From positions 1-27,932 of the IMG/VR virus record IMGVR_UViG_3300032524_000350: a stretch of 27,932 bases of DNA. One strand, 5' to 3'. Both the position numbers and the translations under genes were made by a program. The notes under the pieces are model-generated. The model saw only the letters and a program-made list of their open reading frames with translations, searched no databases and was not told the origin of the DNA. The DNA comes from a virus. Shown one piece after another: positions 4,492-25,542 of the stretch. Numbering within the stretch: position 1 is the first letter of the stretch; each line of letters opens with the position of its first letter.

Positions 4492-5361
4492 ATGTCCAAA
4501 CAAGATTACCCACGACTAGAAATCGAAGAATTTGGCCGCCACCTTATTACGCATGGTGACCTGGACCCGGTTTACATCGCATTGCCGGCTGCCGTCCCAG
4601 ACATCAATCATCGCCACCGTTGGCTCATCGCCTACTGGTGCTTTTATCATTGTGGGGTTGCCAGCTACATAAGCCAGTTTGATGGCACCGATTTTTGGTA
4701 TCGAATGGAACTAGCTGCCGCCAATAACACACCCTCCCCAATTGGTGGACGTTGGCCAAGGGCCAAGGAGCGTCGTCATTTCCGTGGTGTTGCTTCTATC
4801 AATGCTGTTGCCAAATTACGCAGTATGTATCGAGATGATCCTGCCAAGATGGTTCGGTACATTACTAGTGATTGTCCCAGCGACCGGCCAACCCCTTACG
4901 TCGCCATTGCAGATCGTGCTCAGGAGCATCCCCTCTTTGGGCCCTGGATCGCTTTCAAGGTTGCCGACATGGCGGAAACGGTTTTGGGCATTCCGGTCGA
5001 CTTCACCGAGGCCGAGGTCTTCATGTTTAAAGACCCGGTGCGCGCAACGGTTATGCTTTGGCGGCAGCGCCATAAGCTGCCGGATACTGCGGAACCCAAA
5101 GACCTGAACCACGTCATTCATGAAGTCGTGAAACACCTCACGTCGGTGTTCAGTGACCTCAAGGCACCGCCGAGTTATAACCGGCCAATTGGCCTGCAGG
5201 AAGTTGAGACGGTGTTGTGTAAATGGAAGTCGCACATGAACGGCCATTACCCATTGTTCAATGACATCGACGAAATCACTGAAGGATTGCGGGAATGGAA
5301 GGATGCCAGCTCGGTTGCCGCTTCCATGTTGTACTCCATGCCCAAGAGGCCCACGTCATGA
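4492..5361 (+). CDS. Amino-acid:DNA transferase-like enzyme (alpha-glutamyl/putrescinyl-thymine pyrophosphorylase family, clade 2-like)
   Basis: The 289-residue protein matches, from memory, the HhH-glycosylase-related family predicted to replace the pyrophosphate of activated 5-hydroxymethyl-uracil in DNA with an amino acid or polyamine. Visible signatures are the aromatic-rich YWCFYHCGVASYIS segment (residues 48-61) and FGPWIAFKVADMAE (149-162). In HhH enzymes the latter segment type packs against DNA and is followed by the acidic residues of the active site. GAGGAG upstream supports ATG 4492. It opens a train of overlapping genes holding a kinase, an FAD enzyme, a TS-family enzyme and an amidoligase, which strengthens the assignment. 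Which amine it transfers cannot be read from the sequence. Confidence 0.75.
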   Translation: MSKQDYPRLEIEEFGRHLITHGDLDPVYIALPAAVPDINHRHRWLIAYWCFYHCGVASYISQFDGTDFWYRMELAAANNTPSPIGGRWPRAKERRHFRGVASINAVAKLRSMYRDDPAKMVRYITSDCPSDRPTPYVAIADRAQEHPLFGPWIAFKVADMAETVLGIPVDFTEAEVFMFKDPVRATVMLWRQRHKLPDTAEPKDLNHVIHEVVKHLTSVFSDLKAPPSYNRPIGLQEVETVLCKWKSHMNGHYPLFNDIDEITEGLREWKDASSVAASMLYSMPKRPTS

Positions 5362-5549
5362 TGAAGGGTGTTTACGTAGGACCAGAACAAAAGCTGGTTG
5401 GTGAACGGGCAATCATTCAGCAATCTGGGGATGGTCAGGTAAAAGCCCAATTTAATAATACCCAGCTGGGGCATGAATATAGCCATGCGTGGCCAGAGTT
5501 TTCCGAGGATGAATTCGACATTGATCCTCCGGTTGATTGGGAGAATTGA
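5358..5549 (+). CDS. small acidic hypothetical protein
   Basis: This 63-residue protein overlaps the transferase stop (two ATGs in a row, at 5358 and 5361, span the TGA), with GAGG eight bases before the first. The sequence begins with MKGVYVGPEQ, suggesting a small beta-structure, and ends in an acidic stretch around SEDEFDIDPP. There is no membrane segment, cysteine pair or known domain. Its position inside the modification train suggests an accessory role there, but no function can be assigned. Confidence 0.6.
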   Translation: MMKGVYVGPEQKLVGERAIIQQSGDGQVKAQFNNTQLGHEYSHAWPEFSEDEFDIDPPVDWEN

Positions 5550-5550
5550 T

Positions 5551-5904
5551 ATGAAACTTCTTAAAGATGAAACTGATGCTTGGGTTGAACCCCCAATACA
5601 CGGGTGGTTTGGTCTCTCGTATTCGAATTATTTTGTTGCACCGCGAATGATGCTTCAGGCAATGCCCTTGGAGTGGCAACAGAAGTTCATCGCGTTGATG
5701 GACGAAGCTGCCGAGTTAGGAGTGGAAACACCAGTGTATCATGTTCTTCGGGATGATCCGGCATACACTTTTGTTGAAAAATATGACTCTGAGGACGATA
5801 CAAGTCCAGACCGCGAATTCACAATACTCCAACAAGACCCTTGGGGAAATTACCGTTACCCTGATTATAACCTTTTACCGGAGGCATTGAACCATGAAAC
5901 ATGA
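5551..5904 (+). CDS. hypothetical phage protein
   Basis: The ATG at 5551 directly follows the previous stop. The 117 residues include an aromatic-rich start (PPIHGWFGLSYSNYFVAP, about 18-35) and a helical segment MPLEWQQKFIALMDEAAEL (about 42-60). The C-terminal half is acidic and Tyr/Pro-rich. The N-terminal segment resembles widespread phage hypothetical proteins, from memory. Its end overlaps the FAD gene by 11 bases, so expression is probably coupled. No catalytic motif is evident. Confidence 0.6.
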   Translation: MKLLKDETDAWVEPPIHGWFGLSYSNYFVAPRMMLQAMPLEWQQKFIALMDEAAELGVETPVYHVLRDDPAYTFVEKYDSEDDTSPDREFTILQQDPWGNYRYPDYNLLPEALNHET

Positions 5905-6709
5905 CGCAATCATAGTCGGTGGTGGGTTGTTTGGCCAGGTTATTGCTCGTGCCCTCAGAGCAGAAGGTCGAGACGTCGCCGTGTATGACGACCGTCGCCC
6001 GGAAGCTGGTAGCAAACCTGCCGCTTGCCTTATGAAGCCGAGCTGGTTTTCCGGGTTGGGCAAGGACGTATACGAGCCAAGCCTAAAATTATTGGATGAC
6101 CTGTTCAGTGTGAAGGATATTGAATTCACCCTTCGTCCCAGAGTAGCCAAAACCACTGTACATTGGTGTAACCCGGCATCCATCCTGGGTGGCCCGGTTT
6201 GTCCTGCAAAAGTTATTCACGTGGAACCTGGAAGAATACGGACGGAGGGTAACGTAATAATCGAAGCAGACCTCATCGTCGTTTCTGCCGGTGTTTGGAC
6301 GGAAAAGCTGCTTCCACAATACAAGCAGACCGCGCAAAAGGGTGTTGCGTTCTTATGGCCTGAAGAGACCATTGCGGAGCCTTTCATCAACGTTTGGGCA
6401 CCCTACCGACAGCTGGTTGGTTTCAACCGGGGCGATGGCCTTTGGGTTGGCGACGGGACGGCCATTAAAAATGAGAATTGGACACATGAACGATTAGCCA
6501 AATCTTTTAAACGATGTGAAGATGCAATGGAATGTTCTATGGGAACTCCAATTGTTCTTCCTGGCCTCCGCCCATACGCCAAGGGCCATAAGCCCTGCCT
6601 GTTGGAAGAGGTTCGCCCTGGGCTTTGGGTGGCCTCTGGTGGGGCTAAAAACGGTACTGTGGCGGCAGGTTATTGCGCGCATGTTATTCGGGAGAGAACA
6701 AATGGATAA
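5894..6709 (+). CDS. FAD-dependent oxidoreductase/lyase (DAO / glycine-oxidase-like)
   Basis: A Rossmann dinucleotide-binding motif, IIVGGGLFGQVIARAL, starts at residue 6. The second strand ends in VYDDR, where an acidic residue would hold the ribose. A mid-protein VVSAGVWTEKL segment and a C-terminal GLWVASGGAKNGTVAAGY segment are typical of the D-amino-acid/glycine oxidase fold. At 271 residues it is shorter than ordinary family members (about 350-400), as expected for a phage enzyme with a reduced substrate domain. In thymidine hypermodification pathways, flavin-dependent lyases trim an amino acid attached to 5-methyl-uracil in DNA, leaving 5-aminomethyl-dU. The gene position next to the transferase and kinase supports that role. 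CCGGAGG precedes ATG 5894. Confidence 0.82.
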   Translation: MKHDAIIVGGGLFGQVIARALRAEGRDVAVYDDRRPEAGSKPAACLMKPSWFSGLGKDVYEPSLKLLDDLFSVKDIEFTLRPRVAKTTVHWCNPASILGGPVCPAKVIHVEPGRIRTEGNVIIEADLIVVSAGVWTEKLLPQYKQTAQKGVAFLWPEETIAEPFINVWAPYRQLVGFNRGDGLWVGDGTAIKNENWTHERLAKSFKRCEDAMECSMGTPIVLPGLRPYAKGHKPCLLEEVRPGLWVASGGAKNGTVAAGYCAHVIRERTNG

Positions 6710-7622
6710 GGGCTGGACGTACGGCGCGGAACACGAATGGGCCGATCATAACATAACGACCGAATTGCCCAAGGGGTACGCTCGGGACACGCACGATATC
6801 ACCATGGTCAATTCCAACGGCATCGCCAATGACCCTTCTGGGAAATTGTGGAAGATGGGCGGGGAAATTAACACACCCCCAACTGACAGTATCCAGGGGC
6901 AGATTGACTGCCTGCAGCAATTGAAGGAATTACTGCCGACAGCCACTGTGAACTACCGTTCCAACCTGCACTTACACATTCGCGTCCCTGGGCTCAAGGA
7001 CGACCTGGTACTGCTCAAAAGGTTCCAGGCCCATATTCATCGGTGGATGCCGGAAGTGCTGCCGGTGATTGAGCCTATTCCATTTCCCAATGAAGAAAAT
7101 GCAAAACGGGATGGTGATCCAAGAATACGGGAGGAGTATGTTGGTGCACGTCGCCGGTATCGACGGAGGAAGGTGAGCCATCAGACGCTGCTTACACCCA
7201 AGCGTCTTGGCCATCAACTTGAGGCAGACACGGTGGAGGAATTCTTCGCACGGGAAGTTCCCTGGTCGGGGAAGCTCGGCAAGCCGCAGTGGCAATGCCA
7301 GCCGAGGCTCTGCGTGAACCTTCGCCAGATGCGGGAAACGGATACAATTGAATTCCGCCATTTCCCGGGGACAATGAATGCGGATAAGTTGGAAGCTGCT
7401 TTTACATGGGTTCATATGTATGCCCACGCAGCTCTTAGAAATGAACCAATTGATGAAACATTTCTAAAACAACTTAGGGGTGTAATTTATTGGCTGCCCA
7501 AGTTCAAGCCATACGTTCATTGGCAGGAAGAACGTTATCGCATGACGTGCCATGATGGCTCGTTGACAAAGAAACAAATCGCAATTAACATTGCAAAAAT
7601 CCTGGAGGAAGATCATGTCTAA
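6702..7622 (+). CDS. Amidoligase-family enzyme (COOH-NH2 ligase)
   Basis: The 306 residues show the signature of the glutamine-synthetase-like amidoligase family: YGAEHEW (residues 7-13, metal-binding acidic residues), GGEINTPPT, SNLHLHIRVPG, and TIEFRHFPGT near the C-terminal third. These enzymes use ATP to join a carboxylate to an amine as an amide. The ATG at 6702 overlaps the FAD gene by eight bases and follows GGAG. Its own end overlaps the phosphatase gene, so it is translated inside the modification train. I infer that it acylates an amine on the modified base, or prepares the donor. A peptide or cell-wall substrate is the alternative. Confidence 0.82.
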   Translation: MDKGWTYGAEHEWADHNITTELPKGYARDTHDITMVNSNGIANDPSGKLWKMGGEINTPPTDSIQGQIDCLQQLKELLPTATVNYRSNLHLHIRVPGLKDDLVLLKRFQAHIHRWMPEVLPVIEPIPFPNEENAKRDGDPRIREEYVGARRRYRRRKVSHQTLLTPKRLGHQLEADTVEEFFAREVPWSGKLGKPQWQCQPRLCVNLRQMRETDTIEFRHFPGTMNADKLEAAFTWVHMYAHAALRNEPIDETFLKQLRGVIYWLPKFKPYVHWQEERYRMTCHDGSLTKKQIAINIAKILEEDHV

Positions 7623-8076
7623 AAAAGTACTCGTGCTGTGCCACGGCAACGTAAACCGTTCAGCACTTTGCCATTATATTTTAGCCGAGTATGAAGGGCT
7701 GGAAGTAAAATCGGCAGGTGTGAAGCCCGACCTTCGTCCAGGGAAGGCTGCCAAGAAGATGCGCGACGCCGCATTGGAACTCGGCGTCAACCTGGAAGAG
7801 CATCGCTCTCAACTTATTACCACGGACCTTTACCGTTGGGCCGACGTCATCATCTACATGGATGGGGGCAACCTTAAACGCCTACAGCATTTTTGGGAAG
7901 ATCGTTCCTGGACGCTTAAAAGTGATTGGCGGTGCCTTGGAGAATTTGCTGTACCTATACGCAACCGCATTCCGGACCCTGGCTTTATAAAGCGTGGTAC
8001 CCAGGAATTCCATGACGTGGTTTCTCTTATTCACGAAGCATCCCACAACTTGGCCAAGAAACTGATTGCCGAGTAG
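7615..8076 (+). CDS. Low-molecular-weight protein-tyrosine-phosphatase-fold phosphatase
   Basis: The P-loop CHGNVNRS spans residues 9-16 with nucleophile C9 and R15, the exact C-x5-R-S pattern of the family. The general acid is expected at D121 in IPDPGF. Length (153) matches LMW-PTP and arsenate reductase (about 150). All catalytic residues are present, so it is probably active. It overlaps the amidoligase gene by eight bases, with GGAGG just upstream. Within this train it might act on a phosphorylated base intermediate, on nucleotides, or on a host or phage phosphoprotein; the sequence does not decide. Confidence 0.85.
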   Translation: MSKKVLVLCHGNVNRSALCHYILAEYEGLEVKSAGVKPDLRPGKAAKKMRDAALELGVNLEEHRSQLITTDLYRWADVIIYMDGGNLKRLQHFWEDRSWTLKSDWRCLGEFAVPIRNRIPDPGFIKRGTQEFHDVVSLIHEASHNLAKKLIAE

Positions 8077-8119
8077 GGCAACAGAAGGCAACATTGCTTT
8101 TAAGAAAAGGAGCATCGTT

Positions 8120-8767
8120 ATGATCATCAATATTCGCGGCACATCCGGCTCTGGTAAAAGCACTTTGGTGCGGCGGGTTATGGAGCATCCTTCATATGGG
8201 GAAGCAACTAACCATTACATGAAGGGACGCAAGCAGCCGCTTGGCTATATTTTTCCACGCAAAGATGGACCGGACCTGGCCATTGTTGGTCATTATGAAA
8301 CAGCCTGTGGGGGATGCGATACCATCAATAAAATGGAAAACATTTTCCGTTTGGTACGTATTAGCCACATGGCGGGAAATGATGTTATCTTCGAAGGACT
8401 TCTCATTTCCGCCGACGTCAACCGCACCCAAGCCTTGCACGACGAAGGCCTACCTTTGGCCATCGTCGGGCTAGACAAGGTTCCATTGGACCTTTGCCTG
8501 GAAAGTGTTAATGGTCGACGGTTGGCGGCAGATGAAACTCGTCGCGCCAAGGTCATTAATGACAATATTGAGCTATTTGCCAAAGGTAGAAAAACAAAAC
8601 CAGTGCCCTCATATCGTGGCCATGTAGCTGTTGGTAACACCACGTCCAAGTTCAAAGGGGTACAGCAGTCCATGAAACGATTGGAAGATGCCAATGTGGC
8701 AACCTTCCATTGCGATCGTGAAGGGGCCTATGGCATCATTTGCAATGAGCTGGGGTTGAAACAATGA
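8120..8767 (+). CDS. 5-hydroxymethyl-dU DNA kinase-like P-loop kinase
   Basis: Walker A is GTSGSGKST (residues 7-15) in a 215-residue nucleotide-kinase fold. The central segment (GHYETACGGCDTI, then NVIFEGLL-like NDVIFEGLLIS) and the downstream NGRRLA stretch match, from memory, the 5-hmdU DNA kinases of phages with hypermodified thymidine. These enzymes phosphorylate 5-hydroxymethyl-uracil in DNA to activate it for displacement by an amine. A strong AAGAAAAGGAG site supports ATG 8120. The gap of 43 bases before it is the largest inside the train, so expression may be tuned separately. The end overlaps the next gene by four bases. Confidence 0.78.
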   Translation: MIINIRGTSGSGKSTLVRRVMEHPSYGEATNHYMKGRKQPLGYIFPRKDGPDLAIVGHYETACGGCDTINKMENIFRLVRISHMAGNDVIFEGLLISADVNRTQALHDEGLPLAIVGLDKVPLDLCLESVNGRRLAADETRRAKVINDNIELFAKGRKTKPVPSYRGHVAVGNTTSKFKGVQQSMKRLEDANVATFHCDREGAYGIICNELGLKQ

Positions 8768-9663
8768 ATAACATTGACGGTTTCTTCGCCTATGCTCGTG
8801 CCCGTTATCAGCTCATGCTGGACAAGGAGGCCGACTTCGAACGTCCATGGACGAATGATGAAATCTTGCAGACATATCGCTTTTGCAACGTCTTCCGCGA
8901 AGATGACACCACCACGAAGTGGATAGCGAATAATATACGTGAGCCATTGCGGGACAACCCACAAGACCTTGTACTCGCCCTGATCATAGCCCGGTGGTTT
9001 AATCGCATTGAAACCTTGAGCTTGCTCGGTGGGCATTGGGGTGAGGGTCACCCGATGAGTATGCGGTCTATGTTTGACAATTGGAACAGCGACGAAGTTC
9101 GTCGCCGATTGACAGGTATTTCTCCACTCGTGACCGGAGCCTACATAATCAAAACACCGGCCAAGATGAATAAGCTGGAAGGTCTCATCCAGTGCATTGA
9201 GCAATGCAAGTCATTTGGTTACCCAAAAGAAGCGACGATTGCTTGTGGATATTCGGCCAGCCTGCAAACAGTCACTGACATCTTATCCAAATCCCCCTAC
9301 CTGGGCCCATTCATGGCCTACGAAGTCGTCACCGACCTGCGGCACACCCCACTGCTCGATAAGGCCCCAGACATTATGACGTGGGCTAATCCTGGGCCAG
9401 GGTGTACCCGTGGGCTTTCCCGTGTTTATGGTGAGCCGTTGGATAGCCTCAATCGCCATAAGCCCAGCGACGTCGAGGTAATGCAGAGGCGGATGCAAAA
9501 ACTGCTCAAGCATAGTCAACGTGCTGCATATTGGCCGCACCGTTTCCCCAAATGGGACATGCGCACCGTCGAACATACCCTATGCGAATTTGATAAGTAC
9601 GAACGTACAAGGCTCGGCGAAGGTCGGCCGAAGCAGAAATACAAACCTCTTGAGGAGAAGTAA
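8764..9663 (+). CDS. DNA base hypermodification protein (5-hmdU-kinase helical-domain / HhH pyrophosphorylase-like)
   Basis: The 299 residues start with a helical region carrying RPWTNDEILQTYRFCNVFRED (signature around 27-47), followed by a helix ending in ARWFNRIETL. The C-terminal half has YLGPFMAYEVVTDL (179-192) and APDIMTWANPGPGCTRGL (201-218), which look like the helix-hairpin-helix and substrate pocket of glycosylase-derived enzymes. This architecture is associated with phage DNA base hypermodification, where the helical part is often fused to the 5-hmdU kinase. Here it is a separate gene joined by an ATGA overlap. It may be the kinase partner or a second transferase. Confidence 0.72.
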   Translation: MNNIDGFFAYARARYQLMLDKEADFERPWTNDEILQTYRFCNVFREDDTTTKWIANNIREPLRDNPQDLVLALIIARWFNRIETLSLLGGHWGEGHPMSMRSMFDNWNSDEVRRRLTGISPLVTGAYIIKTPAKMNKLEGLIQCIEQCKSFGYPKEATIACGYSASLQTVTDILSKSPYLGPFMAYEVVTDLRHTPLLDKAPDIMTWANPGPGCTRGLSRVYGEPLDSLNRHKPSDVEVMQRRMQKLLKHSQRAAYWPHRFPKWDMRTVEHTLCEFDKYERTRLGEGRPKQKYKPLEEK

Positions 9664-9664
9664 T

Positions 9665-10198
9665 ATGGAAAAATATGCACACTTTATCGCGGCTGGACGC
9701 TCCCTTGAGGCTATCCATTCAATCAATGAAAAACATCGTGAACAAACAGCAAAGACAAAAGTCTTAATTGAAGAACTTGGAGCGGTTCATTCGGTAACGC
9801 AGGCCGGTATCGCTGGCTTCACATTCAAAGATGACAAGCACCCAGAAGGGTGGCGCAAGGCCGGAAGGTGTGGTGGCAAGACCTACTTCTCCCCCTACAG
9901 ACGGTCCAAAGCCGATAAGGAACTATGGAAGCGTTTTGCTGACGCCAATCCGGTATCAAGCGGCGACATTGACAAGCTGTTTATTGGGGACAGTTGGGGT
10001 GTCATGACCGATGAAACAGGGTCGCAGGGTGGAATTGTTATCCGCCATTGCAGCCTAGAGCAGATTTTTGACACCTGGATCATCGGCATACCGTTGAAGG
10101 GTGGTAAGCCCTTTGCCAGCCCTGATGACGCCAAGCACCTTAAAAACTCTGAGTATTGGGCTTTGAAAGAAGCCCAAGATGAAACGAAGGACAAATAA
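9665..10198 (+). CDS. unknown protein of the modification gene train
   Basis: The ATG at 9665 follows GAGGAG and comes one base after the previous stop. The 177 residues begin with a helical, coiled-coil-prone segment (about 1-45), then a Gly/aromatic-rich part with GWRKAGRCGGKTYFSPYRRS (about 69-88), and a mixed alpha/beta C-terminal part. No recognised motif or membrane segment is present. It is fixed between the helical hypermodification protein and the TS-family enzyme, so it is a candidate for an undescribed step. That is inference from position only. Confidence 0.6.
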   Translation: MEKYAHFIAAGRSLEAIHSINEKHREQTAKTKVLIEELGAVHSVTQAGIAGFTFKDDKHPEGWRKAGRCGGKTYFSPYRRSKADKELWKRFADANPVSSGDIDKLFIGDSWGVMTDETGSQGGIVIRHCSLEQIFDTWIIGIPLKGGKPFASPDDAKHLKNSEYWALKEAQDETKDK

Positions 10199-10199
10199 A

Positions 10200-11219
10200 A
10201 TGCACGTTATCCGAGCACGCAACGCTCATGAAATGTTGCCAGAAGCTCTGTACCAATTGCAGCGCAACTTTGTTCTCAATGAAAGTCGCAACGGTGACGT
10301 GATGAAATTCACTGAACCCGTTACATTGGTTTATCGGGAGCCAATTGAGCGTGTCCTGTTTTGGCCGGAACGGGATGCCAACCCCTTCTTCCATCTTATG
10401 GAATGCTTGTGGATGATGGCGGGACGGAACGACGTTGAATTCCCGGCATACTTCGCCAAGCAGATCGCCCAATACAGCGACGACGGCCATATCCTCAATG
10501 GGGCATATGGTCATCGCTGGAGGCACCATTTCAATGGCATTGACCAAATATTATCCATTGTCTATGCCTTGAAGAATAACCCCGATTGTCGCCGACAGGT
10601 ATTGGCCATGTGGGATGCTGGACACGACCTGGGACGCCAGTCCAAAGACCTGCCTTGCAACACCCATGCCTACTTTTCCATCAACAAAGGCAAACTGGAT
10701 ATGATGGTTTGCAATCGTTCCAACGACCTGGTCTGGGGTGCTATCGGTGCCAATGCCGTACACTTCTCTTTCCTACAGGAATGGATGGCTGGTGCCATCC
10801 GTTGCCCTGTTGGGCAATATTGGCAGATGAGCAACAACATGCACCTTTACGTCGATCAGCATGCTGAGTTGCTTAGGGCAATGGAACCTTATGCGGCGGA
10901 TGGGGTTAGTGGTACCCGCCCGACTTCTCCCTACACCAGTGCGCGCCTTGGGCATTTCCCAATCATGAACGTTGAGCCCGATATCTGGCTACAAGACCTG
11001 CAGATGTACCTGGAGGAAGGCGTCGTCATGGGCCTCCGCGAACCGTTTTTCCGCAAGGTTGTTCATCCTATGGTGATAGCCCACAAGGCGTGGAAAGAAG
11101 GGGAGGGTGTTGCCAGGTTTGACACTGCTCTAGAAATTCTGAAGCAGTGCAAAGCAACGGATTGGCAACTGGCCGCCACCGAATGGATACAGCGCCGGAA
11201 GGAGAAGTTCCTTGCTTAA
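10200..11219 (+). CDS. Thymidylate-synthase-family enzyme, probable dUMP hydroxymethylase
   Basis: The protein (339 residues) has the catalytic cysteine C153 in KDLPCNTHAYFSI. The downstream nucleotide-binding segment CNRSNDLVWGAIGAN ends with N185. In this family an Asn here selects dUMP, while dCMP hydroxymethylases carry Asp, so a uracil substrate is expected. A standard TS would make dTMP; with a 5-hmdU kinase and transferase upstream, the likelier reaction is dUMP to 5-hydroxymethyl-dUMP. The spacing of the GAIGAN part differs by one residue from the E. coli enzyme. ATG 10200 after GAAGGA is preferred; ATG 10179 would overlap the gene before. Confidence 0.85.
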   Translation: MHVIRARNAHEMLPEALYQLQRNFVLNESRNGDVMKFTEPVTLVYREPIERVLFWPERDANPFFHLMECLWMMAGRNDVEFPAYFAKQIAQYSDDGHILNGAYGHRWRHHFNGIDQILSIVYALKNNPDCRRQVLAMWDAGHDLGRQSKDLPCNTHAYFSINKGKLDMMVCNRSNDLVWGAIGANAVHFSFLQEWMAGAIRCPVGQYWQMSNNMHLYVDQHAELLRAMEPYAADGVSGTRPTSPYTSARLGHFPIMNVEPDIWLQDLQMYLEEGVVMGLREPFFRKVVHPMVIAHKAWKEGEGVARFDTALEILKQCKATDWQLAATEWIQRRKEKFLA

Positions 11220-11772
11220 AGATATCATACAAGCTCGTGCCGGTGGGCGGGTGGAACGTCTACACATTATGCCCCACCGGCAGGGATATACCAACGCAGC
11301 GCACAGCTGGGGCGTCGGCATGATTATGCTGAAGTTGTGGCCGGAAGACTTCCCTCGGCTGGCTGAGGTTTGCCTCACCCACGACGTGCCAGAATATCTT
11401 GGCGGTGATATTCCAAGCCCTATCTTCCAGATATTGCCTGGTGTTAAGAAGCATTTTGATCGGCTGCATAATCGCATAAATTCCACCCTTGGGCTTGCCA
11501 GTGAGGGGGAATTAGATGAACTCGATCTTGCCAAATTAAAAGCATGCGACCTGATCGAATTCTATTTATTCTGCCGGGAAGAATATGCGTTCGGTAATGA
11601 CTATGTATACGAAACCATTAAAGCTATGGAAGCCAAATACCGCGATGGACGCTATGTCTTCCCTACGCCAGCGGACAAGTTGTTCGAAGAAATAAGGGTT
11701 GGCGATATTCTACCATCATGGCACAAGTTCATGGAGGAACACGCCAGTGAACTTGGAGAAATTGAAGAGTGA
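11212..11772 (+). CDS. HD-domain nucleotidase (YfbR-like)
   Basis: Metal ligands of an HD phosphohydrolase are visible: H31 in AAHSWGV, H57-D58 in LTHDVPEYLGGDI, and D113 in ACDLIEF. The RVERLHIMPHRQG segment before H31 matches the conserved start of YfbR-type 5'-deoxynucleotidases, so the TTG at 11212 (with AAGGAG eight bases upstream, overlapping the TS-family gene) fits better than the internal ATG at 11268. Such enzymes remove the phosphate from deoxynucleoside monophosphates. In a phage with altered thymidine it could lower dTMP or adjust pools. Length (186) is normal. Confidence 0.82.
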   Translation: MLKDIIQARAGGRVERLHIMPHRQGYTNAAHSWGVGMIMLKLWPEDFPRLAEVCLTHDVPEYLGGDIPSPIFQILPGVKKHFDRLHNRINSTLGLASEGELDELDLAKLKACDLIEFYLFCREEYAFGNDYVYETIKAMEAKYRDGRYVFPTPADKLFEEIRVGDILPSWHKFMEEHASELGEIEE

Positions 11773-19319: not shown

Positions 19320-21367
19320 TGGCCCTCCCCTCAAAAATGACAACCGCTGAGCGCCCAAAGCAAGTTGATCACCTAGAAGTTGGGAATTGGTTTTGGGTGG
19401 CTGGGGATGAACCTAGCGACTACGGCCGCAAGAGCAATCCTTCTCCGGTTGATCCTCCTGCTAAAAAATATGCCTGGTTTGGGTGCATTACCCATGTTGG
19501 CTCGAACTATGTTAAAGTGCGCGAGCCAAAGAGTGATGGCGGGTATCACGAATGCCGTGTGCACTTCGACGACGTGGATGAGGAACTGCGGTACGAACCG
19601 GAACCAGAAATGGTTATTGACCGTACATTAATACATTACCAATGTGCTGTCAATAACCTCATGAACGAAGTCAAAGCTGTCACCGCTTCGCTTGGTGTTA
19701 GTAAGACTGCCATTACTGACCAGGTCGGTTCCGGTAATGGTACCGACCTGGCTGTGTTGTCGGAAACTGCTGACCCCAACATTCACAAGCAGGCTCTCAT
19801 TAAGGCCAAGGACGAAACCCTGCCGGAATTGTTCGAGAATATTAAACACGCCAACGTCGGCGTCGCCAAGTGGATGACCGCCGAAACCCTGCCAATGATG
19901 ATTGAGGCAGAGGGGCTGCAGGGTGCCATTGGGCAAATTGAAAAGCGCATCTTCAATATCTCGCTTTATGCTGGGCTGACCGAAGACGTTGTGCAGATAC
20001 GAGAAGGTGCCACCGGCTCCTACGAAGACCGGGTGCACCTCATGCAACGCAAAATGTATATGGACGAAGAATGCCTGGTGGATTATAAAGCTGGCGGTAT
20101 GGACATCCGCGATATTAAGGAATTCGACGAGTGGTTGTCCAAGCCAGAGAACATGGAACGCTGCCTGCCCTTCAATAAGTGCGCCGTCATATTCGAAGTG
20201 CGTCGCAACCGCAAGGAACGCAGCGCCGACAGCAATGCCCAGGCCTACATCAATATTCAACTGGCAGAGGCAGACAAACTTACCTTCCTTTATATTCGCA
20301 ACGGGGGAGCCTTATATCGCCTGTCCACGGATATCAAGTTCGAGGACAAGATGTTCCCAGACGTTGGAGCCTTTGATTTAACCAAGCCGATGATGGCCTC
20401 CACCTGGGGCAGAGGCGGTAAGAACTTCCTGATGCCCAAAGATGAATTCGACGAGATCACGAAGGAAAACAAAAAGAAGGAACGGCTGTGCAAGAAGTGG
20501 GAGAAGGACAATCCTTATCCAGTGTGGAAGAAGGAGAAGGTAAAGCAACCTGCCCCCGACACTGGTAAGTGGGATTTGAGTAAACATGGTTGGAATTATG
20601 CAAACCCTCATAGGGGTGGTGGTTTTGGTGGCAGGTCAAGTATTAATGGTTTCCGTGGGGATATGCACGATTACAAACCCTTCGACAGCACCAACGTTTA
20701 TTACGACGACGTGATGAAGGACATGGCCGAGGAAATGGAGAAGTTCAATCGCATTGCGCTGATCCTGCAGGGTGTGCTGGACCGTTCGCCGGTGCTGCAC
20801 CCGCATCCCAAAGCTGAAACCTGGAAACCGGAAGGCTTCGAACTCATCTTCAAGCTGGTGTACGATGCTAGCATGGTCCTCACCCACGGGGAAGCACCAT
20901 CGTTTGAAGAATATTGGGAGCGGGTAAATCTTCTTGCCGATAAGGACAGCGTGTTTATCGGGCAGCAGGATTATTGGGAAGAGAAAGAAGCTGTTAAGGA
21001 AAACAATCGACGCGACAACGATTATCGCGATCGCTCCGAGTATCGTGTTGAACGATATGCACCGTATGGTAATCCAGGCCCAGGCTTCGTCGCCAAACCG
21101 GCCAAGTGGCACCACCGGGTGAACAAGGCAACGTTCAGCTGGTTCCGGGAACGTCAGCGCCATCAGCGTTGGGGCGAAAGGGGCGACATCCAAACCCACA
21201 TTGTTATAAAACTAGAGCATCTGTTCAACGTGTCCGGTTATAAGAAGGGCGACTACAAACAATTCTTCCAAGACCCTCGCACCCGTTGCGATTACATCAA
21301 GTGGGCTCCGTTCCTGTTGGGCGCTGAGGATTATTTTGCTAGGTTGGAAAAGGAGAACCAGGACTAA
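19319..21367 (+). CDS. large uncharacterised phage protein
   Basis: The 682 residues have no motif I recognise. The N-terminal part (about 20-95) looks like a small beta domain with repeated aromatic and Gly-rich segments. Residues about 100-270 are mainly helical. Residues about 295-370 form a mixed alpha/beta core. A charged, Lys/Glu-rich helix follows (about 378-400), then a Gly-rich linker (about 431-445) and a Trp/Tyr/Arg-rich C-terminal domain. It shares the same TGATG/ATGA-style coupling with the genes around it. The neighbours, a sulfotransferase and a GHKL-like ATPase, do not reveal its function. Confidence 0.8.
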   Translation: MALPSKMTTAERPKQVDHLEVGNWFWVAGDEPSDYGRKSNPSPVDPPAKKYAWFGCITHVGSNYVKVREPKSDGGYHECRVHFDDVDEELRYEPEPEMVIDRTLIHYQCAVNNLMNEVKAVTASLGVSKTAITDQVGSGNGTDLAVLSETADPNIHKQALIKAKDETLPELFENIKHANVGVAKWMTAETLPMMIEAEGLQGAIGQIEKRIFNISLYAGLTEDVVQIREGATGSYEDRVHLMQRKMYMDEECLVDYKAGGMDIRDIKEFDEWLSKPENMERCLPFNKCAVIFEVRRNRKERSADSNAQAYINIQLAEADKLTFLYIRNGGALYRLSTDIKFEDKMFPDVGAFDLTKPMMASTWGRGGKNFLMPKDEFDEITKENKKKERLCKKWEKDNPYPVWKKEKVKQPAPDTGKWDLSKHGWNYANPHRGGGFGGRSSINGFRGDMHDYKPFDSTNVYYDDVMKDMAEEMEKFNRIALILQGVLDRSPVLHPHPKAETWKPEGFELIFKLVYDASMVLTHGEAPSFEEYWERVNLLADKDSVFIGQQDYWEEKEAVKENNRRDNDYRDRSEYRVERYAPYGNPGPGFVAKPAKWHHRVNKATFSWFRERQRHQRWGERGDIQTHIVIKLEHLFNVSGYKKGDYKQFFQDPRTRCDYIKWAPFLLGAEDYFARLEKENQD

Positions 21368-21627
21368 TGCTATTGATACCTGAAATTGAAACCGTCGTCA
21401 TCCTGGTACCAAGAGCCGGTTCTACCTCCATTAAACGGGCGGTGTTGGCAAAATACCCAGAAGCCATGATGATATATCGCCACATGGAGGCAGATGGGGT
21501 GCCGTTCGGATACGATAGATGGCGCAAAATTGGTGTGGTGCATAATCCGATTGATCGGCTATGCAGCCTCTATAAATACTTGAAAATTTTAATGGAAAAT
21601 ACGACCAAGCCTATATTGAGGCTATGA
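21367..21627 (+). pseudogene. N-terminal half of a frameshifted sulfotransferase-like gene
   Basis: The 86 residues contain a sulfotransferase PAPS-binding loop, PRAGSTS (15-21), and the second phosphate-binding region NPIDRLCSLY (60-69). The frame then runs into an out-of-frame stop at 21625-21627. A one-base shift near 21583-21591 (AAAATTTT tract) joins it to the next open frame, which reads NGKYDQAYIEAMRNS before the second gene's ATG. This matches how intact family members continue, from memory. It is therefore a single gene interrupted by a frameshift, unless the shift is programmed or a sequencing error. Translation could also restart at the ATGA overlap at 21624-21627. Confidence 0.65.
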
Positions 21628-21980
21628 GAAATAGTGTTCTAACTGATTTTTCAGAGTGGGTGCTGCATAACCAGATTGTCTTTACTAGTCCTTATGATCG
21701 AGCTGGGCTGGGTAGGTTCTTTCCTCGTTACACAAATAATCACCCAATGCCGGAAAACCAAAAAAGTCAATTTGTCTATTTACGTCCGGACCTCGGAACA
21801 AAGATTTTTAAATTTACCGAATTAGGTAAGATTGAAAAAGAATTGGGGATTAAATTACCCCACCATAATAAAAGTTCAGGTACCTTGTATTCTGGCCTAA
21901 CAGAAGAAGCAACTGAATATGTAAGACGGGTATTTAAATGGGATTTCGAAATTATGTTAGAAAAGGAGACCGAGAAATGA
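21624..21980 (+). pseudogene. C-terminal half of the frameshifted sulfotransferase-like gene
   Basis: The 118 residues include HNQIVFTSPYD and NQKSQFVYLRPDLGTKIFKF, segments usual in phage sulfotransferase-like proteins (a His/Gln-rich region followed by a RPDLG turn). It starts at ATG 21624, overlapping the stop of the upstream half. Without the upstream half it lacks the PAPS loop, so it cannot be an active sulfotransferase alone. It might work as a two-chain enzyme if both halves are made. Its end overlaps the GHKL gene. Confidence 0.65.
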
Positions 21981-24804: not shown

Positions 24805-25542
24805 ATGAACCAGATAGTACATGACAATTGCATTCTGCGGGGCGAAGTTGGCAGTGGAGCTCACGGGACCGGGCTGCCCGGTCAGGAAGATATTGACCAC
24901 ATGGGCATCTTCATAGAGCCAGCCGTCAACGTCTGCGGCCTCCATCCGCTTGATCACTATGTCTATAGAGATCAACCGGAGGGAGTGCGCAGCCAACCGG
25001 GAGACCTGGACCTCGTGATGTACAGCCTGCGCAAGTGGTGCCGGTTGGCGGTCAAAGGCAATCCAAGCGTCATCATGTTGCTGTGGTTGCCGGAATACAC
25101 TGTGCGTTCCGAACTAGGTTCTGCGTTGATTGGTATTCGGAAAGCATTTGTTGGTAAATCTGCTGGCCAAGCCTACCTTGGTTATCTCATCCAACAAGAA
25201 AAAGCCCTGCTCGGCTTGCGCTCCAAAAAGGTTACCCGACCGGAGCTTGTTGAGAAATTTGGGTACGATACCAAATTCGCCATGCATGCTCTCCGCCTTG
25301 GGCTTCAGGGAATTGAATACCTCACGGAAGGGCACTTGTCTATTCCCGTGCAGGAACCTTATCGGTCAATGCTGACCTCAATGCGCCGAGGAGAAATTGA
25401 TTTCGATGAAACAAAAGCCCTTATTGCTGGGGCGAAGGATCGTTTGCGGAAGGCCATTGATGCCTGCCCGTTTGTAATTGATATTGAAGCCGTGGAAAAG
25501 TTTATGGTCATGGCACACAAGGATCATTGGGATGACACCTGA
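24805..25542 (+). CDS. Predicted nucleotidyltransferase (RlaP-like, DNA polymerase beta superfamily)
   Basis: The 245 residues show the polymerase-beta core: GSGAHGTGLPGQEDIDHMG (residues 17-34), with D29 and D31 as metal ligands, and a third acidic site near GDLDLVMYSL (D67/D69). This is the arrangement of RlaP-type nucleotidyltransferases, which are linked to RNA repair and ligation but also occur alone in phages. No RNA ligase gene is visible in this window. ATG 24805 follows the previous stop. Confidence 0.82.
   Translation: MNQIVHDNCILRGEVGSGAHGTGLPGQEDIDHMGIFIEPAVNVCGLHPLDHYVYRDQPEGVRSQPGDLDLVMYSLRKWCRLAVKGNPSVIMLLWLPEYTVRSELGSALIGIRKAFVGKSAGQAYLGYLIQQEKALLGLRSKKVTRPELVEKFGYDTKFAMHALRLGLQGIEYLTEGHLSIPVQEPYRSMLTSMRRGEIDFDETKALIAGAKDRLRKAIDACPFVIDIEAVEKFMVMAHKDHWDDT

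Follow-up and report, generated by a model that had tools for sequence, protein, structure and literature searches.

We analyzed the IMG/VR virus record IMGVR_UViG_3300032524_000350 (27,932 nt or 27.9 kb; hereafter the window) and found in it a thymidine-hypermodification operon at 4492–11772, whose genes are all co-directional and code for 10 proteins (Table 1). The genes that mark a thymidine hypermodification system occur together here: the amino acid:DNA transferase (AADT), the HMUDK_hel domain protein and the thymidylate-synthase (TS) homologue score above their Pfam cut-offs, and the kinase is recognized by synteny and by its homology to gp49 of phage PaMx11. The AADT matches PDB 8z2m ('Glycinyltransferase'), whose sequence is identical to PaMx11 gp46, with 270 bits, and is closer to PDB 25qc (337 bits), which corresponds to gp10 of phage YuA. 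When a 12-kb part of the window was compared with phage sequences by megablast, no match was returned.

Table 1. Genes of the thymidine-hypermodification operon in the window, with the matches on which each assignment is based.
Feature	Position	Strand	Evidence
Amino acid:DNA transferase (AADT)	4492..5361	+	PF18724, 83.5 bits (cut-off 26.2)
Small ORF upstream of lyase	5551..5904	+	Partial PHROG matches; Pfam none
Flavin-dependent lyase (predicted)	5894..6709	+	PF01266, 56.8 bits (cut-off 27.9); 271 aa
Amidoligase, glutamine-synthetase-fold carboxylate-amine ligase (predicted)	6702..7622	+	PF12224, E 5e-4; 306 aa
Low-molecular-weight phosphatase-like protein	7615..8076	+	PF01451, 52.8 bits (cut-off 23.2)
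P-loop kinase, probably 5-hmdU DNA kinase	8120..8767	+	PaMx11 gp49 homology and position; weak HMUD2 (PF18747), E 0.0095
HMUDK_hel domain protein	8764..9663	+	PF18723, 160.6 bits (cut-off 25)
ORF between HMUDK_hel and thymidylate-synthase homologue	9662..10198	+	Pfam and PHROG: none
Thymidylate-synthase homologue, presumed dUMP hydroxymethylase	10197..11219	+	PF00303, 70.8 bits (cut-off 24.3); phrog_5131, 437 bits
HD-domain nucleotidase-like protein	11212..11772	+	PF12917, 33.0 bits (cut-off 25.9)

Two labels given to these genes in the original prediction proved apt. The first, FAD lyase-like, is correct in that the protein matches a solved flavin-dependent lyase: PDB 8z2o ('Flavin-dependent lyase') aligns with 261 bits over residues 1–265, i.e., the whole length, and PDB 8z79 with 258 bits, both entries having the sequence of PaMx11 gp47. 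The window lyase shows a FAD-binding N-terminus with a GxGxxG-type start (VGGGLFG) and shares about 49% sequence identity with phage proteins of the PaMx11 type. It is predicted to turn N-alpha-glycyl-thymidine into 5-aminomethyl-dU.

The second label, amidoligase, holds at the level of the superfamily. On its own, the window protein falls below the Pfam cut-off for PF12224 (20.4 versus 22 bits); 13 of its 23 relatives match this model (E up to 0.01; best 2e-8), and we claim membership as a superfamily fold and not as a Pfam member. A structure model with a pLDDT of 94.7 agrees with this placement, and its PDB matches listed comprise glutamine synthetase (GS), gamma-glutamylcysteine synthetase (gamma-GCS), YbdK, PafA and Dop. 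In absolute terms, these structural matches score low (TM 0.35–0.42, E ~1e-3), and a sequence profile of the ligase had no match among PDB chains, fold comparison alone finding the relatives. Across 25 aligned ligase sequences, E10, E12, E55, H92, R202, E217 and R219 are invariant, and in the model they lie mostly on the core strands 6–17, 52–57, 88–94 and 216–222. The modeled fold and the conserved residues together support a GS-type ligase, such that its membership in the superfamily appears nearly certain. In GS-type ligases, ATP phosphorylates a carboxylate, which is then attacked by an amine. The superfamily also includes hydrolases, and the presence of Dop among the fold matches listed might point to an enzyme that removes an amide, or to an inactive protein. 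We consider this very improbable, as the invariant set of acidic, His and Arg residues is kept in 25/25 aligned relatives, and an amidase in the place that an acetyltransferase occupies in related operons would leave the pathway unfinished.

Relatives of the ligase numbered 110 in the viral scans, of which 80 were kept, and the genome contigs yielded just 4 loci, which makes the family look mainly viral. At 90% identity the analyzed ligase loci collapse to 56 clusters. In one of them (L112, 7986–9688), which is devoid of a recognized modification gene, two amidoligase paralogues scoring 248 and 208 bits lie side by side, and a third, weak match follows downstream.

The original prediction also called attention to an overlap of eight bases between the lyase and amidoligase genes. 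This is exact (6702–6709): the lyase ORF runs from an ATG at 5894 to a stop at 6709, and the amidoligase ORF from an ATG at 6702, a start favored by the homologues over the GTG at 6516 upstream, to a stop at 7622. Taken alone, we rejected the overlap as evidence and view it as ordinary operon packing, because neighboring gene pairs overlap alike: the amidoligase and phosphatase genes by 8 bases (7615–7622), the lyase gene and the preceding ORF by 11, and the kinase and HMUDK_hel genes by 4. What goes beyond chance is the conserved neighborhood. Among the 16 loci with both genes that were measured, the ligase lies immediately 3′ of the lyase or overlaps it in seven (gap −8 to +82 bases), and is found no more than 1.3 kb downstream of it in 14.

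Among the closest known systems is the PaMx11 pathway, with its glycyltransferase gp46, flavin lyase gp47 and acetyltransferase gp48. The window shares its operon order and codes for a homologous transferase, lyase, kinase, HMUDK and TS, but has the amidoligase and the phosphatase-like protein in place of the acetyltransferase. Thus, PaMx11 displays the order AADT, FAD lyase, acetyltransferase, kinase and HMUDK, whereas the window, the sewage phage Simon (PQ683277) and the IMG/VR locus L007, which stops at the kinase, have AADT, FAD lyase, amidoligase, phosphatase, kinase and HMUDK, small inserted genes aside. A scan by the lyase alone gave 25 distinct contigs, with an amidoligase in 13, an acetyltransferase in six and neither in six. 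When all searches were pooled, the search for lyase–amidoligase neighbors in other clusters, as proposed in the original prediction, found them in 18 of 32 distinct lyase loci, with an acetyltransferase in six, neither gene in eight and both in none. Further, a GNAT acetyltransferase was found neither in the operon of the window nor among the genes of the 56 amidoligase clusters. In the lyase tree, the amidoligase- and acetyltransferase-linked classes are intermixed, and the best tree has five changes for each label, with the well-supported branches forcing one change only. Repeated swapping of the acetyltransferase and the amidoligase is hence likely rather than proven on these phylogenetic grounds.

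The lyases of these loci also differ at Lys249 (PaMx11 numbering), the residue changed to Val in PDB 8z79. It is kept in the window lyase, in 12/18 amidoligase-linked lyases and in 6/6 acetyltransferase-linked ones, and is replaced in 6/18 of the amidoligase-linked lyases and in 7/8 of those with neither partner. This variation suggests functional diversity among the lyases. The loci L005, L047, L050 and L053 carry Rhizobium-type lyases with neither an acetyltransferase nor an amidoligase; in L005, the lyase gene is followed by one with a polynucleotide kinase/phosphatase annotation.

The phosphatase-like gene is a companion of the ligase that the earlier reading of this DNA had missed. Its product features a CX5R(S) P-loop and a DP motif, with C9, R15, S16, D121 and P122 invariant in 22 relatives, while the second Cys of the classical low-molecular-weight phosphatases (CX4CR) is replaced by Asn in the window protein (CHGNVNRS). 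It is present in 44/56 amidoligase clusters and in 0/14 lyase loci that lack the ligase. Because its distribution mirrors that of the ligase rather than that of the kinase, the simplest guess for its target is a phosphate carried by the donor or by the product, and our guess is that it serves the amide step. Three clusters (L045 at 4908–7813, L102 and L104) combine a flavin lyase, a radical SAM enzyme (with a SPASM domain in L045) and the amidoligase, and have no phosphatase. An apparent amidoligase–phosphatase fusion in L019 and a phosphatase–kinase fusion in L041 were rejected as frame overlaps.

We then sorted the 56 ligase clusters by context, using family HMMs that were built from the loci of this analysis and anchored by Pfam matches. 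The ligase co-occurs with the lyase in 15 clusters, with the lyase and a radical SAM enzyme in three, with both PLP and radical SAM enzymes in six, with a GATase in 20, with QueF in one, and with QueF and a GATase in one. The remaining 10/56 fall outside these contexts, several of them still carrying AADT, kinase or TS genes. The route to 5-aminoethyl-dU employs enzymes of the PLP and radical SAM classes. 5-NedU has been noted previously (PMC11946847). In total, about 50 of the 56 clusters sit among DNA-modification genes of several pathway types in distant phages, and we hold it highly probable that the ligase has a role in DNA base modification. Other phage amidoligases are most often proposed to function in the cell wall (cited in PMC10580990; PMC11945000), and the Amidoligase_2 (PF12224) phage proteins found with GATases, for which it was proposed, have the ligase superfamily and viral fold matches in common with the window protein. 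The subfamily of the window is distinct from these and embedded in DNA-modification operons, and the ten operon proteins of the window include no GATase, ATP-grasp or cyclotransferase, the neighbors expected in a cell-wall module. Given the range of pathways and phages in which this recurs, a ligase whose target is the host cell wall or a protein and whose presence here is due to chance is barely credible.

The QueF context extends the range of these pathways beyond thymidine. In the cluster L014, the ligase is 54% identical to that of the window, the phosphatase is present, and the ligase has as neighbors a QueE-like protein and the preQ1 synthase QueF-II, which scores 137 bits against TIGR03139 (cut-off 86.9). 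A DpdA homologue was recovered from the same 109-kb record with phage 9g DpdA as the query (E 1e-27), a Pfam TGT search not having detected it, and AADT was absent from the record in a search with a positive control. With QueF, QueE and a DpdA homologue and no AADT, the acceptor in L014 is expected to be 7-aminomethyl-7-deazaguanine; the lyase and L014 contexts should both yield a base with an aminomethyl group. In the ligase tree, L014 is nested in a set of nine rows, 8/9 of which are lyase-linked (SH-aLRT 99). A distant ligase from Vibrio phage 2.275.O also adjoins QueF; in this phage, no AADT was detectable by Pfam and no DpdA by the phage 9g DpdA query. dPreQ1 is an established constituent of viral DNA (PMC6884629, PMC12028318). 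L014 and Vibrio phage 2.275.O have QueF in common with dPreQ1 phages such as Streptococcus phage Dp-1 and Halovirus HVTV-1 (PMC6884629), which L014 additionally resembles in its QueE and DpdA homologue, but both differ from these in adding an amidoligase, from which an amide-capped dPreQ1 is predicted. The argument from the QueF context is tempered by a published caution that sequence distinguishes QueF poorly from QueF-L (PMC6884629).

An AADT gene lies within 8 kb of the ligase in 45/56 clusters, and for two others the record holds one farther away (~47/56). This prevalence might indicate that the ligase builds a small-molecule donor, e.g., a gamma-glutamyl-amine or a dipeptide, for transfer to DNA by the AADT or some other enzyme, the ligase itself leaving the base untouched. 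Free metabolites are indeed common substrates of GS-type ligases. Nevertheless, this appears quite unlikely, since the window AADT resembles known transferases of the thymidine pathway, and the QueF-bearing records of L014 and Vibrio phage 2.275.O are without a Pfam-detectable AADT.

The GATase clusters (20) nearly always include an AADT and none includes a lyase. GATases were found in 0/24 amine-making clusters (those with the lyase or the PLP enzyme) versus 19/23 AADT-only clusters (Fisher 1e-9), an exclusion that does not amount to strong statistics, as no more than about two changes on the tree underlie it. In L022 (7293–8888), L028 (1598–4346) and 18 further clusters, the GATase, amidoligase, phosphatase and AADT genes occur together as another abundant architecture, mostly with no kinase or TS nearby, and GATase-type ligase clusters sometimes feature TET-associated-type glycosyltransferases. 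Where the lyase, QueF or PLP/radical-SAM enzymes are present, the ligase would naturally use the base amine as its nucleophile and a free carboxylate, probably that of an amino acid, as its donor; in clusters that have just a GATase and an AADT, its natural pair would be ammonia and the carboxylate that the DNA-bound amino acid carries. Since the GATase–AADT clusters without a lyase suit the latter pair, either polarity is thinkable: the ligase family may use both, and the window ligase could act likewise on glycyl-thymidine. It would then activate the carboxylate of DNA-bound glycine and couple it with either ammonia or some small amine, with the lyase and the ligase competing for N-alpha-glycyl-thymidine. 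Such a reaction would parallel both the 20-cluster architecture, which would supply ammonia and lacks an amine-making enzyme, and CmoY, which acts with the carboxylate on the base (PMC12783734). For the window we judge this polarity unlikely: a search of its ten operon proteins found no GATase, the lyase would remove the glycine carboxylate, and the ligase occupies the slot of the acetyltransferase, acetylation being targeted at an amine. Likewise, the QueF cluster L014 has no AADT-derived carboxylate to offer.

The pathway that we favor for the window starts with the TS homologue, which would supply 5-hydroxymethyl-dU. The kinase and the HMUDK_hel protein would activate this base in DNA, the AADT would install glycine on the activated base, and the flavin lyase would cut the glycyl-thymidine back to 5-aminomethyl-dU; the glycine-transfer and lyase steps draw on the literature and on solved homologues. 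In 2022, Lee et al. reportedly described the remodeling of 5-hmdU-linked amino acids by enzymes of the radical SAM, PLP, flavin-lyase and acetyltransferase types, the genes occurring in many permutations in metagenomes. The amidoligase would phosphorylate a free carboxylate with ATP, an amino acid being the likeliest donor, and link the activated carboxylate through an amide bond to the exocyclic aminomethyl group, with the phosphatase-like protein perhaps assisting, e.g., by removing a phosphate from the donor. It would thus stand in for the acetyltransferase of PaMx11-type phages, and the end product would be an amide-capped thymidine derivative. That the operon makes such a product, with the ligase acylating the base amine, is in our assessment reasonably probable. 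We know of no other ligase that uses a DNA-base amine as the nucleophile, and this one would be the first. The proposal in the original prediction that an amidoligase takes the place of the acetylation step is supported by the shared slot, the mutual exclusion, the 18 lyase loci and the jump to preQ1. The gene families, their order, the acetyltransferase swap, the pairing with the phosphatase and the recurrence alongside further routes that should leave an amine on a base come from sequence or fold comparisons; from them we infer the amide product, the donor, the base amine as acceptor and nucleophile, and the role of the phosphatase.

None of the literature searched linked an amidoligase with thymidine hypermodification, and an earlier mention is possible. 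The statement in the original prediction that no described DNA base modification made by an amidoligase was known to it holds only in part: CmoY, an asparagine-synthetase homologue, forms a 5-carboxymethylcytosine-glycine amide in the DNA of Synechococcus phage S-B43 (PMC12783734). What stands is that CmoY differs in its fold and in having the carboxylate on the base. CmoY and, by prediction, the window ligase are both ATP-dependent amide ligases acting on a DNA base; CmoY is proposed to proceed by adenylation, with glycine as the amine, in a cytosine pathway with CmoA and CmoX (PMC12783734), whereas the window ligase has the GS fold, and none of the ten operon proteins had CmoA- or CmoX-like Pfam matches. 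The Mom family likewise places an acyl-type group on a phage DNA base (PMC7824862), but, unlike the window ligase, has a GNAT fold and uses acyl-CoA on adenine N6.

More generally, the amidoligase and phosphatase might constitute a mobile cassette that serves as a general amide tailoring module, acylating 5-aminomethyl-dU, 5-aminoethyl-dU and dPreQ1 and, with a GATase, amidating AADT-installed carboxylates—a tentative proposal to which we give slightly less than an even chance. If these proposals are true, DNA base modification would gain an enzyme class and DNA bearing amino acids a route of synthesis, a phage amidoligase subfamily otherwise viewed as cell-wall related would have a concrete function, and one tailoring cassette would be seen to move between the thymidine and 7-deazaguanine pathways.

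Outside the operon, the window contains a sulfotransferase-like protein that is apparently split by a stop or frameshift into two short consecutive ORFs (21367–21980) with a 4-base overlap, the Pfam search being negative for both halves. It also codes for an RlaP-like nucleotidyltransferase at 24805–25542 (PF10127, 79.8 bits).
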